From: Oscillospiraceae bacterium
GTDB lineage: Bacteria; Bacillota; Clostridia; Oscillospirales; Ruminococcaceae
Assembly (NCBI GenBank): GCA_030539275.1
Contig: JAUNSK010000003.1
Location: 157,082-221,081, forward strand
Length of the DNA: 64,000 bases
Direction: 5' to 3'
Shown: positions 4,494 through 22,989 of the stretch, in pieces
How positions within the stretch are numbered: the stretch's first letter is position 1
Layout: each line of letters starts with the position of its first letter
The notes under the pieces: generated by a model
Told to the model about the DNA's origin: nothing
Seen by the model: the letters and a program-made list of their open reading frames with translations, nothing else
Databases searched by the model: none
Program-made: the position numbers and the translations under genes

Positions 4494-5891
4494 ATGAAAA
4501 TTAAAAAAATTGCTGCAGCAATGCTTTCTGCAGTATTGATGTCGGCAGTTGTGACTGGCTGCGGCAGCAACGGAAGTTCAGGATCATCAGGCGGACAGTC
4601 TGGTTCATCTGCTTCAGGATCTTCACAATCAGCTAATGTCAAATCCATCAGATATCTGAACTTCAAACCTGAAATTGCAGGAGCATACCAGAAGATCTCT
4701 GATGCTTATAAAGAAGAGACCGGAATAGAGGTCATAGTAGATACAGCTGCCAACAACACATATGAACAGACACTGGCAGCAAAGATGTCAACAAGTGAGG
4801 CACCGGCAATATTCCAGATAAACGGACCCAGAGGATATCTGAGCTGGAAGGACTACTGCGCTGATCTTACAGATACCGAACTTTACAAGCATCTGACAGA
4901 CAAGTCACTGGCTGTTATGGCAGATGATAAGGCATATGGTATTCCGTATGTTGTTGAAGGTTATGGAATCATCTATAACAACGCAATCATGGAAAAATAT
5001 TTTCAGTCGGATTTCAAAGGTGTAAACTACAATTCAATGGAAGAGGTCAGGAGCTTCTCAGCACTTAAGGAAGTGGCTGAGGATATGCAGAGTCATGCAT
5101 CTGAGCTTGGCATTACAGGTGTATTTGCAAATACTTCTCTGAAATCAGGCGAGGACTGGAGATGGCAGACACACCTTGCAAATATTCCGATTTACTATGA
5201 ATTTACCAAGAATCAGACAGACCTTACAAGTGATGCTGTAAAGCAGATAAAGTTTGAGTATGCTGATAATTACCGTAATATTTTTGATCTGTATACTGAT
5301 AATTCAACAGTTGACAAGAAGCTTCTCGGATCAAAGCTTGTTGATGAATCAATGGCTGAATTTGCTCTGGGACAGTGCGCTATGGTACAGAACGGAAACT
5401 GGGCATGGGGACAGATAAGTTCAGTTGCAGGAAATGTTGTCAGCGAAAATGATATAAAATATCTTCCGATATATACAGGTATCGAAGGTGAGGAAAATCA
5501 GGGACTGTGTATAGGAACTGAAAACTTCTACTGTGTAAATGCCAAAGCAAGTGAAGAAGTCCAGAAGGCAGCCGAAGACTTCCTTTACTGGCTCTACTCA
5601 TCAGACAAGGGCAAACAGTTTGTAATCAAGGATCTCGGATTTATTCCTCCGTTTGACACATTTACTGAGCAGGAATCACCTGATGATCCTCTTGCAAAAG
5701 AAATAATCAGATGGATGAAAAAAGATAAGATCAATACAATTCCGTGGAACTTCACACTGTTCCCGAGCCAGACTTTCAAGGATAATTTCGGATCAGCCCT
5801 CCTGCAGTATGCACAGGGAAAAATGACATGGGATCAGGTCAAGGAACTTGTAGTAAATGACTGGTCATCAGAATATGAAGCAATAGGTTAG
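4494..5891 (+). CDS. Sugar ABC transporter substrate-binding lipoprotein
   Basis: A 465-residue extracellular solute-binding protein (family 1, MalE/MsmE type). Residues 1-21 form a lipoprotein signal ending in VVTGC, with Cys as the lipidated residue, followed by a Gly/Ser-rich flexible linker to about residue 45. The mature domain has the usual hinge segments (for example PAIFQINGP and NGNWAWGQI). I chose the ATG at 4494 rather than the longer upstream frame because GGAGG precedes it by 9 bases and the lipoprotein signal begins there. It would capture an oligosaccharide and deliver it to the two permeases downstream. Co-transcription with a glucanotransferase/phosphorylase fusion points to malto-oligosaccharides. 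Confidence 0.9.
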   Translation: MKIKKIAAAMLSAVLMSAVVTGCGSNGSSGSSGGQSGSSASGSSQSANVKSIRYLNFKPEIAGAYQKISDAYKEETGIEVIVDTAANNTYEQTLAAKMSTSEAPAIFQINGPRGYLSWKDYCADLTDTELYKHLTDKSLAVMADDKAYGIPYVVEGYGIIYNNAIMEKYFQSDFKGVNYNSMEEVRSFSALKEVAEDMQSHASELGITGVFANTSLKSGEDWRWQTHLANIPIYYEFTKNQTDLTSDAVKQIKFEYADNYRNIFDLYTDNSTVDKKLLGSKLVDESMAEFALGQCAMVQNGNWAWGQISSVAGNVVSENDIKYLPIYTGIEGEENQGLCIGTENFYCVNAKASEEVQKAAEDFLYWLYSSDKGKQFVIKDLGFIPPFDTFTEQESPDDPLAKEIIRWMKKDKINTIPWNFTLFPSQTFKDNFGSALLQYAQGKMTWDQVKELVVNDWSSEYEAIG

Positions 5892-5909
5892 AGCGCTTAA
5901 TACAGACTG

Positions 5910-5936
5910 CAGTGCCTCACTTTATGCGGGGCACTG
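5910..5936 (+). other. Intercistronic stem-loop between binding protein and permease genes
   Basis: CAGTGCC (5910-5916) pairs with GGCACTG (5930-5936) around a 13-base loop, without a following T tract. Such hairpins after binding-protein genes commonly stabilise the upstream mRNA so that more binding protein than permease is made; that role is inferred here. Confidence 0.55.
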
Positions 5937-5954
5937 TGTTAAAGGGGAAGAGTT

Positions 5955-6800
5955 ATGAATAAAAGACTGAACAGATACATGCCTCTGTTTGTACTGCCTA
6001 CACTTATAGCTTTTATTATATTTTTTGTCATTCCTTTTATCATGGGTATTTATCTGTCATTTACAAAGTTTACGACAGTAACAAATACTCAGTGGGTTGG
6101 ATTCGGCAACTACGTAAGAGCATTTAAAACAAATAATGATTTCACACATGCATTATGGTTTACCGTAAGGTTTACAATTGTATCTGTAATTACTGTAAAT
6201 GTATTTGCTTTTCTCTTGGCACTTGCACTTACTAAATCACTCAAGGGGACAAACGTATTCCGTACAATATTTTTTATGCCTAATCTGATAGGCGGTATTG
6301 TGCTGGGTTATATATGGAATCTTATTATCAACGGTGTGCTTCATTATTTTGGTGTTGATATCACATTTGATGCAAGGTATGGTTTCTGGGGACTTGTCAT
6401 ACTGATGAACTGGCAGCTGATAGGTTATATGATGGTTATTTATATTGCCGGACTTCAGAATATTTCAGGCGATCTTCTGGAGGCAGCCTCGATAGACGGA
6501 GCATCATCTGCTACAAAACTGTTTAAGATCACTATTCCGATGGTTATGCCTTCGATAACGATCTGCATGTTTCTGACGCTTACAAATTCCTTCAAGCTTT
6601 TCGATCAGAACCTTGCACTTACGTCAGGTGCACCAGGCAGAGAAACTGCAATGCTTGCACTTGATATTTATGATACTTTTTACGGCAGAATAGGCTGGCA
6701 GGGTGTAGGACAGGCCAAGGCAGTTGTATTTTTTATTATTGTAGCGATAATTGCATTTATACAGCTGAGATTAACCAGAAGCAAGGAGATAGATAACTAG
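5955..6800 (+). CDS. Sugar ABC transporter permease (MalF/UgpA type)
   Basis: A 281-residue inner-membrane permease with about six membrane segments. The cytoplasmic EAA loop, which contacts the ATPase, is visible as EAASIDGASSATKLFKITIP near residue 180. It belongs to the carbohydrate uptake transporter-1 family and pairs with the next permease. GGGGAAGAG lies upstream of the ATG. No ATPase gene is present in the cluster, so it probably uses a shared multi-sugar ATPase (MsmX/MalK type) encoded elsewhere, as is common in Gram-positive bacteria. Confidence 0.9.
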   Translation: MNKRLNRYMPLFVLPTLIAFIIFFVIPFIMGIYLSFTKFTTVTNTQWVGFGNYVRAFKTNNDFTHALWFTVRFTIVSVITVNVFAFLLALALTKSLKGTNVFRTIFFMPNLIGGIVLGYIWNLIINGVLHYFGVDITFDARYGFWGLVILMNWQLIGYMMVIYIAGLQNISGDLLEAASIDGASSATKLFKITIPMVMPSITICMFLTLTNSFKLFDQNLALTSGAPGRETAMLALDIYDTFYGRIGWQGVGQAKAVVFFIIVAIIAFIQLRLTRSKEIDN

Positions 6801-6801
6801 T

Positions 6802-7647
6802 ATGAGTATTAACAGTAAAAATAAAGTATCTGCAGCGTGGCTGACAGCATTGCTTTGTCTGTTGTCTGTCATATTTCTGGCTCCTGTATTTATAATACTG
6901 ATAAATTCCTTCAAGTCAAAGCTGTATATAATGGGTACTCCGTTTACGTTGCCGAACCCGGATACATTTGTCGGATTTCAGAATTATGTAAACGGCGTAA
7001 AATCATCAGATCTTATACTTTCATTCGGCCGGTCAGTGTTCATTACTGTATTTTCAGTATTTGCGATAATTTTTCTGACATCAATGACTGCTTGGTTTAT
7101 TGTCAGGGTCAATAACGCATTTACAAAGATCATCTACTATGCTTTTGTATTCAGTATGATCGTCCCTTTCCAGATGGTCATGTTTACGATGACTTATACA
7201 GTTAATGTTCTGAGATTCAACAATCCTGTCGGTATAATTCCGGTCTATCTGGGATTCGGATCAGGGCTTTCAGTCTTTATGATGACAGGCTTTCTGCGAA
7301 GTGTACCTATGGATCTTGAAGAAGCCGCTATGATAGACGGTTGTACAGGACCTCAGATCTTCTTCAGAATAGTATTTCCGATAATGAAGCCGACCCTTAT
7401 AACAGTAGCGATCCTTAATGCGATGTGGATATGGAATGATTATCTGCTGCCTTATCTTATACTAGGCAGTACAAATAAAACGATGCCTGTAGCGATCCAG
7501 CTTGCAATGCAGGGCGCTTACGGTTCTGTTGACTGGGGTGGATTTATGGCTATGCTTGTGCTTGCGATCATACCTATTGTCATATTCTATCTGTTCGGAC
7601 AAAAGTATATTATCAAGGGTGTAATGGCCGGTGCTGTTAAGGGATGA
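6802..7647 (+). CDS. Sugar ABC transporter permease (MalG/UgpE type)
   Basis: A 281-residue second permease subunit, six membrane segments, starting one base after the stop of the first permease. The EAA loop is EEAAMIDGCTGPQIFFRIVFP around residue 175. With the preceding gene it forms the membrane channel of the importer. A 137-base gap with a possible stem-loop (7689-7698 pairing with 7722-7732) separates it from the glucan-processing gene, without an obvious terminator or promoter, so one operon is likely. Confidence 0.9.
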   Translation: MSINSKNKVSAAWLTALLCLLSVIFLAPVFIILINSFKSKLYIMGTPFTLPNPDTFVGFQNYVNGVKSSDLILSFGRSVFITVFSVFAIIFLTSMTAWFIVRVNNAFTKIIYYAFVFSMIVPFQMVMFTMTYTVNVLRFNNPVGIIPVYLGFGSGLSVFMMTGFLRSVPMDLEEAAMIDGCTGPQIFFRIVFPIMKPTLITVAILNAMWIWNDYLLPYLILGSTNKTMPVAIQLAMQGAYGSVDWGGFMAMLVLAIIPIVIFYLFGQKYIIKGVMAGAVKG

Positions 7648-14266: not shown

Positions 14267-14301
14267 TGTAGCTTTCAGGGTAGTTGTTTAGTATTAATAA
14301 T
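14267..14301 (+). promoter_or_regulatory. Conserved upstream element of dockerin/rSAM cassette 1
   Basis: TGTAGCTTTCAG, 11 bases, then AGTATTAATAAT. The same two blocks with exactly the same spacing occur before cassette 2 (16297-16331). A TATAAT follows at 14318-14323. Candidate promoter or operator shared by the two cassettes. Confidence 0.5.
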
Positions 14302-14383
14302 GATTTTTGTTTTGCAGTATAATGTGTATATTATGGATCTCAGGTACATTAGAAGGTCTGGGAAATTATAAAGGAGAGATAAT

Positions 14384-15010
14384 ATGAAAAAAACCAAAAG
14401 AACACTTATTACAGCAGCAGTACTTACTACAGCAGCACTTAATCCGAAATTATCCAGTCAGGCTGATGATAATGCTGAAGCTATGGCACCTGTGTATGGT
14501 CCGCCTTCATATTTTTATGAGAAAGGCGATGTGAATATGGACGGCAAAGTCAATATTCTTGACTGCTGTCTGATGCGAAGTGCAGCACTTGGTCAGAAAG
14601 GTTATACTGAGGATTCACTTACTGATATAAACACAGACGGCATAATAGATTCCAGGGATGTTCTTGCAATTCAGAACTTTATGCTTGCAAAAAGTCAGTC
14701 AGTACAATATCGTGAAGATGAGACTACACAGCCTGAATACGGAGTTGTGACTGCAACCGAAACAACGACCCAGCCAGTATACGGAACTATGCCGGCTACA
14801 GAAACAACGACCCAGGCAGTACCAGTATACGGAACAATGCCGGCTACCGAAATGTCTGAAGAGACAACAACGACCCAGCCGGTTTATGAATCCTTTCCTG
14901 TTACGGAAGAACCGATAGTTACATCACCTCAGCCAGTATATGGAACATGGCAGGCTGATGAAGAAACTGAGCCTGAATATGAAAATTCCAATAATGATGA
15001 GGTGAAATAA
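14384..15010 (+). CDS. Dockerin protein with x-Tyr-Gly repeats, putative radical SAM substrate (copy 1)
   Basis: 208 residues. A basic N terminus and hydrophobic stretch (residues 3-20) look like a Sec signal. Then comes PVYGPPSYFY (36-45), conserved in copy 2. Residues 47-103 form a type I dockerin with two calcium loops (DVNMDGKVNILD and DINTDGIIDSRD). The tail is a Thr-rich linker with six Pro-x-Tyr units at Tyr119, 133, 149, 168, 186 and 199; four are PxYG and two are PxYE. The spacing of about 14-18 residues and the recurring ATETTTQ give it the look of a repeated core. The stop overlaps the ATG of the radical SAM gene (TAATG), a coupling typical of a precursor and its modifying enzyme. 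Function as substrate is inference. The dockerin would attach the product to a cohesin-bearing scaffold. Confidence 0.75.
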   Translation: MKKTKRTLITAAVLTTAALNPKLSSQADDNAEAMAPVYGPPSYFYEKGDVNMDGKVNILDCCLMRSAALGQKGYTEDSLTDINTDGIIDSRDVLAIQNFMLAKSQSVQYREDETTQPEYGVVTATETTTQPVYGTMPATETTTQAVPVYGTMPATEMSEETTTTQPVYESFPVTEEPIVTSPQPVYGTWQADEETEPEYENSNNDEVK

Positions 15011-16062
15011 TGCTTAACATAATTCAAAAAAAGAAGCGCATGCGTGAACTGACCGCCGCTGAAAAAGTTACATTAAAATATCTTTTTCTTGAACTCACAG
15101 TACGCTGCAATGAGCATTGTCTTCATTGCGGAAGCAGGTGCGGAGATGTCAGCGCCGAAGAACTTACCCCAACACAATATCACGATTTTCTCAAACAAAC
15201 AGCAGAGGACTTTGACACAAAGAAGTTTACTCTTTGTGTAACCGGCGGTGAGCCGCTGGTACGCAGTGATTTTTTTGATATTATGTCTGATGCCAATGAT
15301 CTCGGCTATCTCTGGGGTATGACTTCAAACGGAATACTTATTACACCTGAAGTAGCCAAAGACCTGAAACGCTGCGGAATGAAGACGATCTCTATAAGTA
15401 TTGATGGTACTGAGGCCACTCACGATGCTTTCCGTTCAACTCCGGGCGGATGGAAAAAAGCTATGGATGGAATAGAGAACCTTATAAAAACGGGCGGATT
15501 CAAGCATATTCAGGTTACAACAGTGGTAACTCATCAGAATATCACTCAGCTCGATGAGCTTTATAATATATTCAGGGATATGGATATCGACTCGTGGAGA
15601 ATAATTAACATCGATCCTATAGGAAGGGCAAAGCTGCACCCCGAGCTTCTGATGACTCAAGAGGACTATGTAACTATGTTTGAGTACATCCGTAATAAAC
15701 GTATGGCTGCTGAGCCTGTGACATACGGATGTGAACATTATCTTGGTATGGACTACGAACGTGAGGTACGTGACTGGTACTTTCACTGCGTAGCAGGCAA
15801 GGAGATCGCAAGCATAATGAGCAACGGTGATATCACAGCCTGCCTTGATATAGAACGCAGACCTGAGTTTATAATGGGCAATATTTTTAAGGACCGTCTT
15901 ATTGATGTCTGGGAAAATGGTTTTCAGATATTCAGAAAAGGACTCAGCTGTGAAAACTGCCAGAAGTGCGGAGATTTCGAGTTCTGCAAGGGCGGAGCTT
16001 ATCATACATGGAATTTTGATGAGAACAGACCTAATGTATGTTTTAAGGACGTGCTGTTCTGA
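15010..16062 (+). CDS. Radical SAM/SPASM peptide-modifying enzyme (copy 1)
   Basis: 350 residues. The radical SAM cluster motif is CNEHCLHC (Cys33, Cys37, Cys40), with TGGEPL as the SAM-binding GGE segment. The C-terminal third is a SPASM domain for auxiliary Fe-S clusters: HC-x13-NGDITAC, then CENCQKCGDFEFC and a final Cys in RPNVCF. SPASM enzymes of this size usually modify ribosomal peptides or proteins. No separate leader-recognition (RRE) domain is visible. The ATG overlaps the stop of the preceding dockerin gene by one base, with GAGGTG as ribosome site inside that gene, so the two are translationally coupled. The chemistry is not known; a PlpX-like splicease or a cyclophane-forming enzyme are both possible given the xYG motifs in the partner. 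Confidence 0.85.
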   Translation: MLNIIQKKKRMRELTAAEKVTLKYLFLELTVRCNEHCLHCGSRCGDVSAEELTPTQYHDFLKQTAEDFDTKKFTLCVTGGEPLVRSDFFDIMSDANDLGYLWGMTSNGILITPEVAKDLKRCGMKTISISIDGTEATHDAFRSTPGGWKKAMDGIENLIKTGGFKHIQVTTVVTHQNITQLDELYNIFRDMDIDSWRIINIDPIGRAKLHPELLMTQEDYVTMFEYIRNKRMAAEPVTYGCEHYLGMDYEREVRDWYFHCVAGKEIASIMSNGDITACLDIERRPEFIMGNIFKDRLIDVWENGFQIFRKGLSCENCQKCGDFEFCKGGAYHTWNFDENRPNVCFKDVLF

Positions 16063-16080
16063 TCACTTAATACATACTGA

Positions 16081-16114
16081 AAACAGCGGATCTCAGAATA
16101 GAGATTCGCTGTTT
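16081..16114 (+). terminator. Terminator of cassette 1
   Basis: 14-base stem (AAACAGCGGATCTC with GAGATTCGCTGTTT, one G-T pair), 6-base loop. No long T run follows directly (the next bases are CTTAAAC), so termination may be leaky. Cassette 2 has a related hairpin at 18043-18070. Confidence 0.65.
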
Positions 16115-16296
16115 CTTAAACTTCGCAGATTTTTTTATCTCAGTTACTATTCAGATCAAAAAAATCAATATTTCTATGAAGGGATCATAGGAAAAGGTTT
16201 TTGACCGCATATAAGTACTGTATGACTATACTCTATTGATACCGCTCCTATAAAACATAATGTTTGATTATCAGATAGCATATTATTGAAAATAAT

Positions 16297-16331
16297 TGTA
16301 GCTTTCAGCATTTATACAAAGTATTACTAAT
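16297..16331 (+). promoter_or_regulatory. Conserved upstream element of dockerin/rSAM cassette 2
   Basis: TGTAGCTTTCAG, 11 bases, then AGTATTACTAAT. It matches the cassette 1 element (14267-14301) in both blocks except for one base and has identical spacing, while the sequence between and around the blocks differs. The rest of the 16115-16405 gap shows nothing else I can support. Confidence 0.5.
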
Positions 16332-16405
16332 ACAGTATGCATTATATCAGATGCTTTGTTACATCCAGTAGCAATAAAAAGTAAAGTATGTGAAGGAGAA
16401 TTGTA

Positions 16406-16966
16406 ATGAAAAAAACCAGCAGAACAATAATGACTGCAGCTGTTCTTACAGCAGCGGCAACTCTTAATCCTGCGGCATCAGTTAATTCAGGAGAGAACGT
16501 TGATGCTATGGCTCCTGTATACGGCCCGCCGTCATATTTTTATGATAAAGGCGATGTCAATACGGACGGAAAAATCAACATTCTTGATTACTGTCTTATG
16601 AGAAATATTGCCCTTGGCGGCAACGGATATTATGAGAGCAGTCTGACTGATGTTAATCAAGACGGTATAGTTGACTCCAGGGATGTTTTAGCTCTCCAGA
16701 ATTTCATGCTTACAAAAGCAGGTGAAGTTGTTTTTCCTGAAGAGACTACCATGCCGGTAACTCAGCCTGCTTATGGAACATATCCTGTGACATCATCGGT
16801 GGTACAGACTAAATACGGAGTGTTTCCTGCAACAGTTCCGAACACTGAAATTACCGGGACAAATCCTGAAGAAACCGAACCCCCTGTAACGACAATACCT
16901 GATAAATGGGGTACTCAGTCAATTCCGGGTGAGACCGATGAGGGCGGACATCAGATAACGAGGTGA
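16406..16966 (+). CDS. Dockerin protein with x-Tyr-Gly repeats, putative radical SAM substrate (copy 2)
   Basis: 186 residues, same plan as copy 1: Sec-like N terminus (residues 4-20), AMAPVYGPPSYFY (35-46), a two-loop type I dockerin (48-104; DVNTDGKINILD and DVNQDGIVDSRD), then a Pro/Thr-rich tail. The tail has fewer aromatic-Gly units: PAYG (Tyr123), TKYG (Tyr137) and DKWG (Trp168). The tail has diverged from copy 1 much more than the dockerin and the PVYGPP segment have, as expected if the tail is the variable product and the front part is held by recognition or docking. The ribosome site is GAAGGAG upstream of the ATG. The stop is 4 bases before the next radical SAM gene. Confidence 0.75.
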   Translation: MKKTSRTIMTAAVLTAAATLNPAASVNSGENVDAMAPVYGPPSYFYDKGDVNTDGKINILDYCLMRNIALGGNGYYESSLTDVNQDGIVDSRDVLALQNFMLTKAGEVVFPEETTMPVTQPAYGTYPVTSSVVQTKYGVFPATVPNTEITGTNPEETEPPVTTIPDKWGTQSIPGETDEGGHQITR

Positions 16967-16970
16967 CATA

Positions 16971-18023
16971 ATGCTTAATATAATGCAAAAAAAGAAACAT
17001 ATGAGAGAGTTGGCAGCGACTCAGAAATATAAACTGAATCATCTTTTTCTTGAACTGACTGTACGATGCAATGAGCGCTGTCTGCATTGCGGTAGTAAAT
17101 GCGGTGATGTTAAAGCCGAAGAAATGACGCCTTTGCAGTATCATGAGTTTCTTAAACAGACAGCAGAGGATCTTGATACCAGAAGCTTCACTCTGAATAT
17201 AACAGGCGGTGAACCTCTGGTACGAAGTGATTTTTTTGATATTGTGTCTGATGCCAGTGATCAGGGATATCTCTGGGGAATGACTTCAAACGGAACTCTT
17301 ATTACTCCTGATGTAGCAAAAGATCTTAAACGCTGCGGCATGAAGACTATATCAATAAGTATTGACGGCAATGAAGCAACACATGATGCATTCAGAAGAA
17401 CGCCCGGAGGCTGGAAGAAGGCAATGGACGGAATTGAGAATCTTATCAGAACAGGCGGATTTCAGCATATTCAGGTCACAACAGTAGTTACCCATCAGAA
17501 CATTGGACAGCTTGATGAACTATACAGTATTTTCAAGGAAATGGATATAGATTCATGGAGAATAATTGAAATGGATCCGATAGGCAGAGCGACTCAGCAT
17601 CCGGAGCTTCTGATGACCAATGAGGATACTGTCACAATGATGGAGTATATCAGGAATAAACGAATGGCGGCTGAACCGGTTTCTTACGGTTGTTCACATT
17701 ATGTTGGCATGGATTACGAACGTGAGATACGTGACTGGTATTTTCACTGTGTAGCTGGCAAGGAAATTGCCAGCATCATGTGTAACGGCGATATTACTGC
17801 CTGTCTCGATATTGAACGCAGGCCTGAGTTTATTATGGGTAATATTTTTAAAGACCGTTTCAGAGACGTCTGGGAAAATGGTTTTCAGATATTCAGAAAA
17901 GGAGTCACATGTGAAAACTGTGAGAAGTGCAGCGATTATGAATTCTGCAGGGGCGGTTCATATCACACGTGGAATTTTGATGAGAACAGACCTAATGTAT
18001 GCTTTAAAGACGTTCTGTTCTGA
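16971..18023 (+). CDS. Radical SAM/SPASM peptide-modifying enzyme (copy 2)
   Basis: 350 residues, colinear with copy 1 without gaps. Cluster motif CNERCLHC (Cys33, Cys37, Cys40), TGGEPL, and a SPASM domain with the same cysteine layout (HC...GDITAC...CENCEKCSDYEFC...VCF). Differences are scattered along the whole length, so this is an old duplication with both copies kept functional, not an assembly artefact. Differences cluster to some extent at residues 8-27 and in the 180-240 region, which might tune substrate choice. GAGGTG lies 5 bases upstream of the ATG, overlapping the end of the partner gene. It presumably acts on the dockerin protein encoded just before it; cross-activity on copy 1 is possible. 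Confidence 0.85.
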   Translation: MLNIMQKKKHMRELAATQKYKLNHLFLELTVRCNERCLHCGSKCGDVKAEEMTPLQYHEFLKQTAEDLDTRSFTLNITGGEPLVRSDFFDIVSDASDQGYLWGMTSNGTLITPDVAKDLKRCGMKTISISIDGNEATHDAFRRTPGGWKKAMDGIENLIRTGGFQHIQVTTVVTHQNIGQLDELYSIFKEMDIDSWRIIEMDPIGRATQHPELLMTNEDTVTMMEYIRNKRMAAEPVSYGCSHYVGMDYEREIRDWYFHCVAGKEIASIMCNGDITACLDIERRPEFIMGNIFKDRFRDVWENGFQIFRKGVTCENCEKCSDYEFCRGGSYHTWNFDENRPNVCFKDVLF

Positions 18024-18042
18024 TATTTTATACATACTAAAG

Positions 18043-18070
18043 CAGCGTATCTCAAAAATGAGATACGCTG
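18043..18070 (+). terminator. Terminator of cassette 2
   Basis: CAGCGTATCTC (18043-18053) pairs perfectly with GAGATACGCTG (18060-18070) around AAAAAT, followed by TTATTTATT. It is similar in sequence to the cassette 1 hairpin. Confidence 0.75.
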
Positions 18071-18165
18071 TTATTTATTGATGGGTGCACAATTATGTAA
18101 AAATGAAAATGAATATTTGGTTTCAGACTGTAAAATGTTCAAGTGAGGGCTGCGCCTTTATGCTT

Positions 18166-18960: not shown

Positions 18961-19638
18961 TTATAAAGAAAATAAAACTTTCAGATAAATGTCTTTTCTG
19001 GATATAGATCCGAAACGTATAAACCTGCTGTCATTTGAACAATCAGGGTTGTCACCGATAAGAAAGTATTGATCCTCGCAAAGCGTTACTGGATATGTAA
19101 TATCACCGGATTTAAGTTCATCCGGCAGATACGGCTCACTGCAAAGCTCACTGTTAATATAAAGCTTTCCGTCACTGATCTCCACTTTGTCTCCGGGTAT
19201 GCCTATAACACGCTTGATAACAGTTGAGTTTTCTGTATTTGCTATTACTATGTCACCGCGTTCAGGGGAAGAAATAAGGTAACTCAGTTTGCTTGATACT
19301 ATATAGTCACGGTCATTGAATGTCGGACTCATGCTGCTGCCGGAAGTCAGCAGTACAGGAAACGCAGCACTTGCAAAGATGCATGCTGCAAGACAAAAAA
19401 AGATCACTGATATAATTATGATCCTTCTTCTTTTTTTCAGCCGTTTAGCAAGGTTCCCATAGGCTATGTCCTGAGATTCATCTGACTTTATTGATATGCT
19501 GTCATAGTATTTAGCACACTCGCTGCAGATATTCAGGTGCGACTTTATTACACGGGCTGCTTCTTCACTCGTTTTGTCTGTTTTATAGTCAGTCATAAGT
19601 TCTTTTACAAGAATACAGATCATATCCTCATGCTCCAT
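18961..19638 (-). CDS. Anti-sigma factor fused to signal peptidase I
   Basis: 225 residues. Residues 1-45 look like a zinc-binding anti-sigma domain (His34, Cys38, Cys41 in HLNICSEC). A basic stretch and one membrane helix (72-97) follow. The rest is a type I signal peptidase: SGSSMSPTF with catalytic Ser102, the lysine segment VIKRVIGIPGD with Lys142, and LIGDNPDCSNDSR. The sigma-binding part would be cytoplasmic and the peptidase outside. The start lies inside the sigma gene (11-base overlap). A sigma/anti-sigma pair in this order is common; an anti-sigma domain joined to an active-looking signal peptidase is not one I know as a characterised arrangement. The peptidase could process the anti-sigma protein itself or the client proteins of the regulon. 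Confidence 0.8.
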   Translation of the reverse strand: MEHEDMICILVKELMTDYKTDKTSEEAARVIKSHLNICSECAKYYDSISIKSDESQDIAYGNLAKRLKKRRRIIIISVIFFCLAACIFASAAFPVLLTSGSSMSPTFNDRDYIVSSKLSYLISSPERGDIVIANTENSTVIKRVIGIPGDKVEISDGKLYINSELCSEPYLPDELKSGDITYPVTLCEDQYFLIGDNPDCSNDSRFIRFGSISRKDIYLKVLFSL

Positions 19639-20134
19639 AGTCGATTACCTCCATTTGTTCTTTCAGCTTCTTTCTTGCTCTGCAGTAAATTATTCGTGCA
19701 TTCTCTTCACTCATTCTCATTATTTTTGATATCTCAGAGAACTGCATGTCATGATATAGTCTGTATATGAGTATATCACGATATTTTTTTTTCTGTTTTA
19801 AAATGCACTTAAGTATATCGGCACCAGTCTGGGAATTTTCAGCTATGTATGAAGGATCCTGAACGCTGTCGGGAGTAATATCAGGTTTATTATCCTCAAG
19901 AAATATCTCATGTCGGTTTTTTCTGTAGTGTCGGAAACTCACGTTTTTTGCAATTCTGCACAGCCATGTACTTACCTGACAATCGCCGCGGAACTTATGA
20001 AAGGATACAAAAGCCTGATAAAACGTCTCTTCGCACAGATCTTCAGCAACTGATGCGTCTGAATTATTAAGCAGGAACAAAAACTTATATACCTGCAGAT
20101 AATACCTCTTGTAAACAGATTCAAAATCCTCCAA
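19628..20134 (-). CDS. ECF-type RNA polymerase sigma factor
   Basis: 168 residues with region 2 (DLCEETFYQAFVSFHKFRG, then CQVSTWLCRIAKN) and region 4 (YRDILIYRLYHDMQFSEIS, then a helix-turn-helix with ENARIIYCRARKKL). No regions 1 or 3, as expected for an extracytoplasmic-function sigma factor. The start is a TTG at 20132-20134, supported by a strong ribosome site GGAGGTGAT 4-7 bases upstream; an ATG overlapping that site is out of frame. It heads an operon with its likely anti-sigma factor and a membrane peptidase. A TGTAAC at 20198-20203 on the minus strand might be an autoregulatory -35 element. Confidence 0.9.
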   Translation of the reverse strand: MEDFESVYKRYYLQVYKFLFLLNNSDASVAEDLCEETFYQAFVSFHKFRGDCQVSTWLCRIAKNVSFRHYRKNRHEIFLEDNKPDITPDSVQDPSYIAENSQTGADILKCILKQKKKYRDILIYRLYHDMQFSEISKIMRMSEENARIIYCRARKKLKEQMEVIDYGA

Positions 20135-20403: not shown

Positions 20404-22989
20404 ATGAAACGACTGGTTATCGGAGTTCTGGCTCATGTTGACTCAGGAAAAACTACTCTTTCAGAGGGTATGCTTTACTGCTGCGGTGCAATAAGAAAGC
20501 TTGGACGTGTAGACCATAAAAATGCATTTCTTGATAATTATGAGCTTGAGAGGGAAAGAGGCATCACTATATTTTCGAAACAAGCTGTAATAAACTATGG
20601 AGATACAGAAATAACACTGCTTGACACACCGGGGCACGTAGACTTTTCTACAGAAATGGAACGTACACTCCAGGTACTTGATTATGCAGTTCTCGTAATA
20701 AGCGGGAGTGACGGAGTCCAGAGCCATACAAGGACGCTGTGGAAACTGCTTGCGCACTATAATATTCCTGTTTTCATATTTGTTAATAAGATGGATATCG
20801 CGGGTTCTGACAGACAGGTTCTGATGGACGAACTAAAAAGCAAGCTGTCTGAGCAATGCTGTTTCTTTGATGATGATGACAAGTCAGAGCAGTTTTATGA
20901 AGATATAGCACTTGGCAGTGAGGAGCTGATGCAGGAGTTTCTGGATAAAGGTGTTGTGCCTGAAGATCAGATAGTAAGCAGCATAAAAAAACGTGAGATC
21001 ATTCCATGCTGTTTTGGCTGTGCACTGAAGCTGCAGGGGGTTGAGAAATTTCTTGAGCTTCTTGACAGATATACAATAGCTCAGGATGATAAGTCTGAAT
21101 TTGCCGCAAAGATATTCAAGATCTCCGAGGATGATCAGGGCAACAGACTTACATTTATGAAAATAACCGGCGGTTCGCTCAGGGCAAGAACAATGCTGTC
21201 ACATCAGGATAAATGGACTGAGAAGATCAATCACATCCGTATATACAACGGGGCAAAGTTTTCGCAGACAGCCGAAGCTTTTCAGGGAATGGTATGTGCA
21301 GTAACAGGACTTACTCAGTCATATCCGGGTGAAGGTCTGGGAGCTGAGGCTGACAGTGAATCATCTATGCTTGAACCTGTTCTGACATATATGGCAGTAA
21401 TAAATGATGATACAGATATAAATACTGCACTCAAGGCATTCAGAAGGCTTGAGGATGAGGATCCGGCTCTTCATATCATATGGAATGAACAGTTAAGGGA
21501 AATACATGTTCAGGTCATGGGGGAGATTCAGCTTGAAATACTCAGGAGTGTTCTGAAGCAGAGATTTTCAATGGATGCTGATTTTGTTCATGGAGGAATT
21601 GCATATAAGGAGACGATTGCATCACCGGTGGAGGGGGTAGGTCATTATGAACCTCTTCGTCATTATGCTGAGGTCCATCTGCTTCTCGAACCGGGTGAGC
21701 AGGGCAGCGGTCTTCAGTTTTTCTCTGACTGCAGGGAAGATGATCTTGATAAGAACTGGCAGAGACTGATAATGACACATCTCAGGGAAAAAACTCATTT
21801 AGGTGTTCTTACAGGTTCACCGGCAACAGATATAAAGATCACACTCAAAGCAGGACGTGCCCATCTCAAGCATACTGAGGGCGGAGACTTCAGGCAGGCT
21901 ACCTACAGGGCTGTAAGACAGGGCCTTAGATCTGCTGAGAGTATACTGCTTGAACCCTGGTATAATTTTATACTTGAAATTCCTTCAGAGTATATCGGTC
22001 GTGCAATGGCTGATCTGACAAGAATGGAATGTGAATTTACCCCGCATCAGATAAATCCTGATAATACCGCTGTTATAACCGGAAATGCTCCTGTAGCATC
22101 GATACGTGACTATCAGACTGAGATAACCGGATATACAAAAGGAAAAGGGAAACTTATGTGTTCTCTCAGAGGATATGCCAGATGCCATAATGAAGAAGAG
22201 GTAATTGAAAAAATAAATTATAACTGTGACAGTGATACCGATAACTCATGTGACAGTATCTTCTGTTCGCACGGAGCCGGGTTTGTAGTAAAGTGGGATC
22301 ATGTACCGGAATATATGCATATTGCCAGTGTTCTGAAAACGCAGGAAAATGAACAGCCTGAACCCAGGACACAAAAGACGCAGACAGCAGTGAATGAGTA
22401 CCGCAGGCAGTCTGATCAGGATAAGGAACTGATGGACATTTTTGAAAAGACATATGGAAAAGTCAATCAGGAAAAAAAGAAAAATGCCTTCAGGACAAAA
22501 AAAGACAAGGAGCTGACCGACGTTTCATACCGTGGTAAACCTCTGCCGGAGGGACCAGAGTATCTGCTCGTTGACGGATATAATATAATCTTTTCGTGGG
22601 ATGAACTAAAAAAAGAAGCTGCGGTTAATCTTGATCTTGCCAGAAGCATGCTGATAAATATAATGAGCAATTATCAGGGGATAAAACAGTGTGAGGTCAT
22701 AGTCGTGTTTGATGCGTATAAGGTGAAAGGTGCATCCCGTGAAATAGAAAGATTTCATAATATCAATGTTGTTTATACAAAGGAAGCAGAAACTGCTGAC
22801 ATGTATATAGAAAAGGTTACTCATCAGCTCAGTCATCAGCACCGTGTAAGAGTTGCAACATCTGACGGACTCGAGCAGATAATAATCCTCGGAAACGGAG
22901 CTTTCAGGATTTCATCAGCTGAACTGTACGACGAGGTAAGACTTATGCAGAAGACTATAGATGATTTTATTAAATTCAATACAAAATAA
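20404..22989 (+). CDS. TetM-like translational GTPase with C-terminal NYN nuclease domain
   Basis: 861 residues. The first about 650 are an EF-G-like ribosomal-protection fold: AHVDSGKTT (P loop, residues 10-18), DTPGHVDF and VNKMD, then domains II-V. The rest holds a charged linker and a NYN/YacP-like domain (YLLVDGYNIIFSWDEL; VVFDAYKVKG; ATSDGLEQ) with the acidic residues of a PIN-like RNase. Ribosomal-protection relatives with this added tail occur in the chromosomes of related Clostridia as I recall, so this is probably a housekeeping ribosome-rescue or mRNA-cleaving factor, not an acquired tetracycline resistance gene. The joint presence suggests it binds stalled ribosomes and cuts RNA. 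The ATG is preceded by AGAGAGGA. The next gene starts 23 bases later. Confidence 0.85.
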   Translation: MKRLVIGVLAHVDSGKTTLSEGMLYCCGAIRKLGRVDHKNAFLDNYELERERGITIFSKQAVINYGDTEITLLDTPGHVDFSTEMERTLQVLDYAVLVISGSDGVQSHTRTLWKLLAHYNIPVFIFVNKMDIAGSDRQVLMDELKSKLSEQCCFFDDDDKSEQFYEDIALGSEELMQEFLDKGVVPEDQIVSSIKKREIIPCCFGCALKLQGVEKFLELLDRYTIAQDDKSEFAAKIFKISEDDQGNRLTFMKITGGSLRARTMLSHQDKWTEKINHIRIYNGAKFSQTAEAFQGMVCAVTGLTQSYPGEGLGAEADSESSMLEPVLTYMAVINDDTDINTALKAFRRLEDEDPALHIIWNEQLREIHVQVMGEIQLEILRSVLKQRFSMDADFVHGGIAYKETIASPVEGVGHYEPLRHYAEVHLLLEPGEQGSGLQFFSDCREDDLDKNWQRLIMTHLREKTHLGVLTGSPATDIKITLKAGRAHLKHTEGGDFRQATYRAVRQGLRSAESILLEPWYNFILEIPSEYIGRAMADLTRMECEFTPHQINPDNTAVITGNAPVASIRDYQTEITGYTKGKGKLMCSLRGYARCHNEEEVIEKINYNCDSDTDNSCDSIFCSHGAGFVVKWDHVPEYMHIASVLKTQENEQPEPRTQKTQTAVNEYRRQSDQDKELMDIFEKTYGKVNQEKKKNAFRTKKDKELTDVSYRGKPLPEGPEYLLVDGYNIIFSWDELKKEAAVNLDLARSMLINIMSNYQGIKQCEVIVVFDAYKVKGASREIERFHNINVVYTKEAETADMYIEKVTHQLSHQHRVRVATSDGLEQIIILGNGAFRISSAELYDEVRLMQKTIDDFIKFNTK

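Follow-up and report, generated by a model that had tools for sequence, protein, structure and literature searches.

Paired dockerin proteins and radical SAM/SPASM enzymes in a Ruminococcaceae genome: a candidate leaderless splicease system directed by a Tyr-Gly motif

Introduction

What does a radical SAM/SPASM enzyme do beside an exported dockerin protein that carries repeated x-Tyr-Gly (xYG) sites? The question arises in a 64,000-nucleotide stretch of an Oscillospiraceae bacterium (contig JAUNSK010000003.1, positions 157,082 to 221,081; hereafter the window), which comes from a genome of 3.68 Mb in 49 contigs; positions 14267-18072 of the window hold two such gene pairs head to tail. Spliceases are best known from the precursors of ribosomally synthesised and post-translationally modified peptides (RiPPs). 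A preliminary description of the locus had proposed that the dockerin proteins are the substrates of the coupled enzymes, with PlpX-type spliceases as a precedent. We find that the xYG protein is very probably the substrate of the adjoining enzyme and that a PlpX-like reaction is the best guess for the chemistry; the enzymes are probably leaderless xYG spliceases, which would excise tyramine and leave alpha-keto-beta-amino acids, mostly derived from Val, on exported proteins.

Results

Enzymes of the window family are coupled to YGPP proteins

A contig scan for the enzyme returned 52 loci, from which two distant outliers (L100 and L101; 24 and 21% identity) were dropped to leave 50. A frame containing Tyr-Gly-Pro-Pro (YGPP) adjoins the enzyme in 45 of these. 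The loci contain 1249 further frames that are 80 residues or longer; only 5 have the motif, all of them extra partner genes (one in L056, three in L058 and one in L068), and the 1244 that encode no partner lack it. For every locus except L071, which ends at a contig edge, we found an xYG protein: it is adjacent in 47 loci (the 45 with YGPP, and L094 and L096 with single xYG sites) and lies elsewhere in the genome for two, L053 and L054. Where the preliminary description would have counted homologues regularly found alone against its proposal, xYG partners thus proved general, while dockerins belong to only part of the family. When partners were picked by adjacency alone in 70 loci (L032-L102 without L096, some of them one locus in two copies), an open reading frame (ORF) adjoined the enzyme in 66, and the longest such ORF contained YGPP in 56. 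Partner genes also multiply, with five in a row in L043 and four in L058, and a second partner with 4 or 5 YGPP occurs in two close relatives.

Gene pairs of this kind might simply be co-transcribed, the enzyme not acting on its neighbour and YGPP serving as a Pro-rich linker or a binding motif. In favour of this explanation, linkers rich in Pro/Thr are common in cellulosomal proteins, and the enzymes of L053, L054 and genome G300 have no adjacent partner. However, L053 and L054 correspond to genomes G096 and G292, and these two and G300, all congeners of the window genome, hold a YGPP dockerin protein elsewhere; moreover, beside the enzyme YGPP persists on unrelated scaffolds, it is missing from the non-partner frames, and related families also pair with xYGxP proteins. 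We therefore regard mere co-transcription as very unlikely.

A papain-family protease with a lectin-like domain and a dockerin lies directly downstream of the L053 enzyme (5133-7022 of that locus; Pfam), and a papain-like dockerin protease follows the L054 enzyme; as a hint on role this is suggestive only.

The partners in L094 and L096 are small membrane proteins with one xYG each (one protein in L094, five in L096), some of the form MYGVP or LYGVP. The L096 contig (CAMKSF010000026.1, 378-6043), which carries its five membrane proteins beside a radical SAM enzyme of the clade described below, is labelled as uncultured Clostridia and is readable only with TGA as Gly (code 25). This code is used in Absconditabacteria/Gracilibacteria, and the system may reach candidate-phylum bacteria.

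In the DNA of the window genome the plain xYGPP pattern (x = F, L, I, M or V) has 7 matches: one in each partner, one in a RuvB-like protein and four in short frames (40-77 codons). It shows no enrichment there over its reversed control (7 vs 10). A scan for YGPPxxF, in which reading frame was not checked and which we treat as weak evidence, gave 38 matches in 20 genomes with the enzyme against 11 in 20 without it (genomes with a match, 14/20 against 7/20; reversed-pattern controls, 16 and 25).

The enzyme is present in 10 of 11 genomes of the window's genus, including 6/6 of those of good quality, in 20 of 297 genomes of the family and in 2 of 398 genomes of a phylum sample, one of the two being the window genome; the nearest relatives by enzyme identity are Ruminococcus metagenome-assembled genomes. 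On these counts the enzyme belongs chiefly to Clostridia of gut and rumen; L089, from Eggerthellaceae, is an outlier. A phage collection gave only distant radical SAM matches among the 10 of 23 records listed.

The motif stays constant while its carrier changes

Partner A (208 residues; 14384-15010, + strand) and partner B (186 residues; 16406-16966, + strand) are 61% identical over their matched part. Both begin with a signal-peptide-like sequence (judged by eye) and match Dockerin_1 above the Pfam cut-off of 22.9 bits (49.1 bits for partner A and 46.1 bits for partner B), with two DxNxDG loops each; neither contains another Pfam domain above its cut-off. The type I dockerin has 144 matches across the window's own genome, and the two partners are predicted cellulosomal dockerin proteins that can plug into a cellulose-digesting machine.

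Their first YG site, APVYGPPSYFY, sits between signal peptide and dockerin (YG codons at 14495-14500, just 5' of the partner A dockerin, and at 16520-16525 in partner B; both + strand), and the remaining sites lie in a Thr-rich tail. Partner A has five YG sites, at residues 38, 119, 133, 149 and 186, the last four spanning 14738-14944 on the + strand (14738, 14780, 14828 and 14939), together with YE at residues 167 and 198; partner B has three, at residues 39, 123 and 137, the last two spanning 16772-16819 on the + strand (16772 and 16814), together with WG at residue 167. Neither the window partners nor eight other partner proteins examined match a Nif11 or NHLP leader family or TIGR04134. 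The cassettes consist of two genes only, and six neighbouring genes lack a PqqD-like domain at an E value of 0.01, a result that covers PlpY-like or RiPP recognition element (RRE) genes near the cassettes, unlinked RREs elsewhere not having been searched for.

Elsewhere in the family, exported partners range in length from about 60 to 320 residues and have at most 8 sites. The motif rides on dockerin proteins (the window, L063 of Ruminococcus flavefaciens FD-1, and L057), on DUF805 membrane proteins (L075, L069 and L045), on lipoproteins, some of which have YGPP directly after the lipobox (by eye), and on others; the partners in L098, L089 and L092 have no Pfam match. On a 48-row enzyme tree the scaffold changes at least seven times among five states, assigned by eye for most rows, while YGPP stays. 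Because the dockerin is only one scaffold among several, display through a dockerin applies to some family members and not to all.

YGPP is the commonest 4-mer among 56 non-redundant partners (X letters were removed from the L050 protein before counting) and occurs in all 56, against 0.22 expected from residue shuffles. This set is partly circular, since ORFs beside the enzyme that lacked YGPP had been removed and the motif itself had served to choose 10 of the 67 proteins present before redundancy removal, and the count over 1249 frames given above is the fairer control. We aligned 197 of the family's 212 YG sites, leaving out those near an end. The residue before Tyr is V in 65%, L in 10%, I in 6%, E in 6% and K in 4%, and the Gly is followed by P (86%), P (86%), P or E (51%), W (25%) and F (39%), percentages that are conditional on YG and to that extent count less for a splicease.

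Thioether formation is common among SPASM enzymes that have a small protein as neighbour, and the PapB and StsB models match enzyme A weakly (72 and 80 bits), both of which would fit repeats that serve as substrates of cysteine-based RiPP chemistry (sactipeptides or ranthipeptides). The partners, however, contain just 2 (A) and 1 (B) cysteines, none inside a YG site, and in the family Cys stands at position -2 in 9% of sites, partly as the lipobox Cys. Because the YG sites of the window partners are free of Cys, we rejected this explanation as highly improbable.

The window enzymes share a clade with a PlpX-type enzyme

Enzyme A (15010-16062) and enzyme B (16971-18023), both of 350 residues and on the + strand, match Radical_SAM and SPASM above the Pfam cut-offs and contain ten cysteines that are invariant in 39 aligned enzymes, three in CxxxCxxC and seven further ones. 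Their best curated family is TIGR04133 (273.5 and 272.4 bits). TIGR04103, which we take to be the PlpX family, scores lower, and profile scores fail to separate the families; we therefore built trees, in which true members of TIGR04133 and TIGR04103 came from plasmid records. A first quick tree of 61 rows, which had no AhbD/NirJ rows, gave the xYG clade at 94 without a star. Two careful trees, of 36 and 39 rows, drew on 17 of the 43 YGPP-family enzymes and gave the clade at 98/96 and 99/97, respectively; excluded from both were L164, L100, L101, L160 and L163_Paeni2 (long branches or doubtful kin) as well as L095 and L192.

In the 39-row tree the clade comprises 26 rows: 17 of the YGPP family, 3 of TIGR04133, L094 and L096, a Nostoc PlpX-type enzyme, an Agathobacter enzyme and 2 GDL maturases. 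It stands apart from 13 other radical SAM rows (AhbD/NirJ-like, MftC, PqqE, TIGR04053, TIGR04347 and one Paenibacillus enzyme). Within it, the window family, TIGR04133 and L094/L096 form a 22-row group at 100/99, the order inside which the tree does not settle. Residues G41, S42 and W196 are common to all clade groups, and A207, G246, E250 and R254 occur in all listed clade rows except that of Agathobacter. G246, E250 and R254 are present in 98-100% of the 43 YGPP enzymes and, like G41, in 0/13 outside rows. Common ancestry of the window enzymes with the PlpX-type enzyme, apart from the sampled SPASM families, is supported by these data. They also support the proposal that the xYG-rich dockerin proteins are substrates, as does YGPP beside the enzyme in 45 of 50 loci. 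The earlier link to PlpX holds as far as the clade and the xYG partners of the sampled groups go (the GDL group in part), but the nearest curated family is TIGR04133 (273 bits, against 129 for TIGR04103).

The Nostoc enzyme scores 853 bits to TIGR04103 (cut-off 725) and lies beside a Nif11 precursor ending RGSIALYGLPPELF, with LYGLPPELF in that ending, and beside a 71-residue ORF in the place of PlpY. Close to this enzyme the same plasmid cluster (L126) encodes, in addition, a precursor of the NHLP type and another Nif11 precursor without xYG (5448-5945 and 6228-6524). The enzyme from Agathobacter rectalis, at 235 bits to TIGR04103, adjoins an unannotated ORF ending GPVMYGTGVRM.

Several observations weigh against a PlpX-like splicease. 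TIGR04103 matches the window enzymes far below its cut-off of 725 bits and is not singled out by the profiles, enzyme A scoring 139.8 bits with AhbD, 138.8 with MftC and 129 with TIGR04103, and enzyme B 149.9 with MftC, 136.8 with AhbD and 122.5 with TIGR04103; both enzymes also fall below the TIGR04133 cut-off of 425. The tree contains one certified TIGR04103 row and a sample of the SPASM families, and the nearest rows to the PlpX-type enzyme are GDL maturases, whose peptides have YG in 2/5 cases, so that chemistry may differ within the clade. S42, W196 and A207 are not confined to the clade, being present in 15-31% of the 13 outside rows, and the Agathobacter enzyme lacks four signature residues. 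The window sites include degenerate repeats (VYES, EYEN and KWGT), and the cassettes hold no PlpY-like gene, whereas PlpX works with PlpY. When a splice tag was placed in FtsZ, PlpXY modified 2 of 16 placements, and the motif alone is therefore not always enough (PMC10533398). Lastly, the chemistry is a prediction from sequence.

These profile scores, alike across the three families for enzyme A and clearly led by MftC for enzyme B, speak for the main alternative, that the enzyme modifies xYG(PP) by another reaction, such as an MftC-like oxidative decarboxylation or C-C bond on Tyr, oxidation of an alpha or beta carbon, or a crosslink from Tyr to a following residue. Possible crosslink participants are present in the W at +5 or the F at +6 of the family sites, but this pattern is not kept in the window tail sites VYGTMPATE, VYGTWQADE and KYGVFPATV, and the TIGR04134 and PlpX-type sites, taken as one set, do not have it. 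An MftC-like reaction fits poorly with the position of the sites, which are internal in the window proteins, whereas both of two MftC precursors end in VY at the C terminus; the MftC rows also lie outside the clade. For these two reasons a mycofactocin-like enzyme was not our first choice, although the profile scores do not separate it. Taken together, another reaction at xYG seems unlikely, if considerably less so than the cysteine-based and co-transcription explanations, and a leaderless protein splicease is the best reading because an enzyme of the PlpX-type clade here meets V-Y-G-P-P in arrays.

Organisation and candidate regulation of the two cassettes

ORF calls, Pfam matches, folding and an element search confirmed in both cassettes the order that the preliminary description had given: promoter-like element, dockerin protein gene, radical SAM/SPASM gene and hairpin. 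The coordinates likewise bear out its close spacing of the genes. The start codon of enzyme A begins with the final base of the partner A stop codon, a one-base overlap (TAATG), and enzyme B starts four bases after the partner B stop. Terminator-like hairpins follow enzyme A (16081-16114, + strand; -21.1 kcal/mol, z -6.5) and enzyme B (18041-18072, + strand; -21.9 kcal/mol, z -6.0), a simple terminator scan listing the second on the + strand and not the first. The 85% identity of enzymes A and B suggests that the cassettes arose by tandem duplication.

Each cassette is preceded on the + strand by an exact copy of a shared element, TGTAGCTTT-N15-GTATTANTAAT, at 14267-14301 and 16297-16331. With up to 3 mismatches allowed, these remain the only two matches in the window, where shuffles predict 0.02. 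The element contains TGTAGC-N18-GTATTA, the shape of a promoter of the extracytoplasmic function (ECF) type. Across the genome, at up to 3 mismatches, it occurs at 19 places, a count that takes in the two in the window; the reversed pattern occurs at 2. Among the 17 places outside the window (L195-L211), 10 have an ORF behind a ribosome-binding-site-like sequence within 450 bases, and the other 7 are all 3-mismatch places. One of the 10 ORFs encodes a sigma-70 family factor with Pfam regions 2 and 4 (L195, G000:C3:214659), and the other nine encode secreted-looking proteins, all with an in-frame dockerin match. Because the element precedes a sigma factor gene and nine dockerin genes, it suggests a candidate regulon in which an ECF factor would drive its own gene and a set of dockerin genes that includes both cassettes. 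The upstream element of the preliminary description is therefore present and shared by the cassettes as described, but is better understood as ECF sigma promoter-like and as shared with other dockerin genes of the genome. It is not general in relatives: a strict match lies within 260 bases of only 2 of the 17 partner genes checked (L056 and L051).

Further along the window, at 18961-20134 on the minus strand, an ECF-like sigma factor is followed by a zinc-finger anti-sigma-like region (Pfam zf-HC2 at 19.1 bits, cut-off 22.2) joined to a type I signal peptidase. At 20404-22989 an EF-G-like GTPase, presumably of the ribosome-protection type, is fused to a C-terminal YacP-like NYN domain.

Discussion

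From the coupling, the motif, its conservation, the swapping of carriers and clade membership, all of them read from sequence, we infer how the enzyme reacts, when it acts, where its products are displayed and what they are for, as follows. Each cassette would supply a dockerin protein destined for export together with its own radical SAM/SPASM enzyme, which would act in the cytoplasm on the xYG sites of its partner, prior to export. The enzyme would itself recognise V-Y-G-P-P or its relatives, with no leader peptide or linked RRE partner, and this reading of the motif would allow one enzyme family to decorate quite different carriers. Excision of tyramine (-135.08 Da per modified site) would leave mostly Val-derived ketoamides, and on a dockerin carrier these electrophilic groups would be displayed on the cellulosome or the cell surface. 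There they could plausibly be protease-inhibiting warheads, forming a polyvalent inhibitor that shields the complex, or else a site of covalent capture.

Published work on PlpXY is consistent with parts of this scheme. PlpXY acts on MYG and LYG and accepts GYG, and is said to need no leader and to function on a splice tag of ten residues (PMC10533398); spliceotide products have been cited as protease inhibitors (PMC11117315), and the PlpX family has the identifier IPR026482 (PMC11002830).

If the same chemistry operates on exported proteins, backbone beta-amino acids would be a regular protein decoration in gut and rumen bacteria and not an oddity of natural products, and reactive non-standard amino acids may be shown on a cellulose-digesting machine. 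A short tag guiding splicing would then have moved between unrelated carriers, in the model cellulosome organism R. flavefaciens FD-1 the dockerin carrier would gain an electrophilic function, and the V-Y-G-P-P enzyme and tag would form a set usable for protein labelling. More tentatively, and with somewhat less than even confidence in the whole, we suggest a sizeable and so far unrecognised class of leaderless, motif-directed backbone-splicing enzymes. This class might extend from Bacteroidota lipoproteins (TIGR04133/TIGR04134) via code-25 candidate-phylum bacteria to rumen Clostridia, and might decorate lipoproteins, membrane proteins and cellulosomal dockerin proteins with arrays containing up to eight alpha-ketoamide warheads as polyvalent surface protease inhibitors or covalent capture sites, here within a dockerin set under ECF sigma control.

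The preliminary description knew of no system joining a dockerin to such an enzyme, and our literature search, in titles and the starts of abstracts, returned no pairing of a dockerin with a radical SAM/SPASM enzyme. The principal splicease survey, Scott et al. 2022 (10.1016/j.chempr.2022.09.017), cited for 939 predicted splicease systems (PMC10533398), may already list the window family, whose novelty is uncertain.

Compared with PlpX/PlpY spliceases, the window system shares a radical SAM/SPASM enzyme, xYG followed by Pro (LYGLPPELF in Nostoc; the PlpXY tag LYGLPI, PMC10533398), a supported clade and common residues. It differs in that no Nif11/NHLP leader and no PlpY-like gene were found in the cassettes, in the distance of enzyme A from the PlpX model (129 bits against a cut-off of 725) and in having exported proteins as its predicted substrates. 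The GDL motif peptide maturases (TIGR03913), encoded with DUF1843 peptides, belong to the same clade, but act beside short peptides without an obvious signal peptide, are longer enzymes and have a weaker motif. Near the N terminus, DUF1843 GDL peptides have PYG in 2/5 cases (noted at L158 1153-1866 and L159 1287-1742) and LYA or MYA in 2/5.

Another close parallel is the TIGR04133 enzyme with its TIGR04134 lipoprotein, a pair that we found in Parabacteroides, Phocaeicola and Treponema and that is not named in the papers searched. In all three lipoproteins (L122, L123 and L124) an xYGxP site lies at or shortly after the likely lipobox Cys (CEYGSPHANF, CEYGTPSADY and CYGMPENYY). Like the window system, this is a two-gene cassette whose exported partner has xYGxP near the mature N terminus, and the enzymes group together at 100/99; unlike it, the window enzyme scores only 273 bits against a cut-off of 425, its partners do not match TIGR04134, and partners of the window family often have many sites, dockerins or DUF805 domains. 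The pair looks like a splicease system too, and the scheme proposed here would give it a concrete hypothesis. As for the carriers in the window, they resemble Ruminococcus cellulosomal type I dockerin proteins in their Dockerin_1 domain, two DxNxDG loops and signal peptide (by eye), and differ from them in having no other Pfam domain above its cut-off and in carrying xYG repeats with a dedicated radical SAM enzyme.

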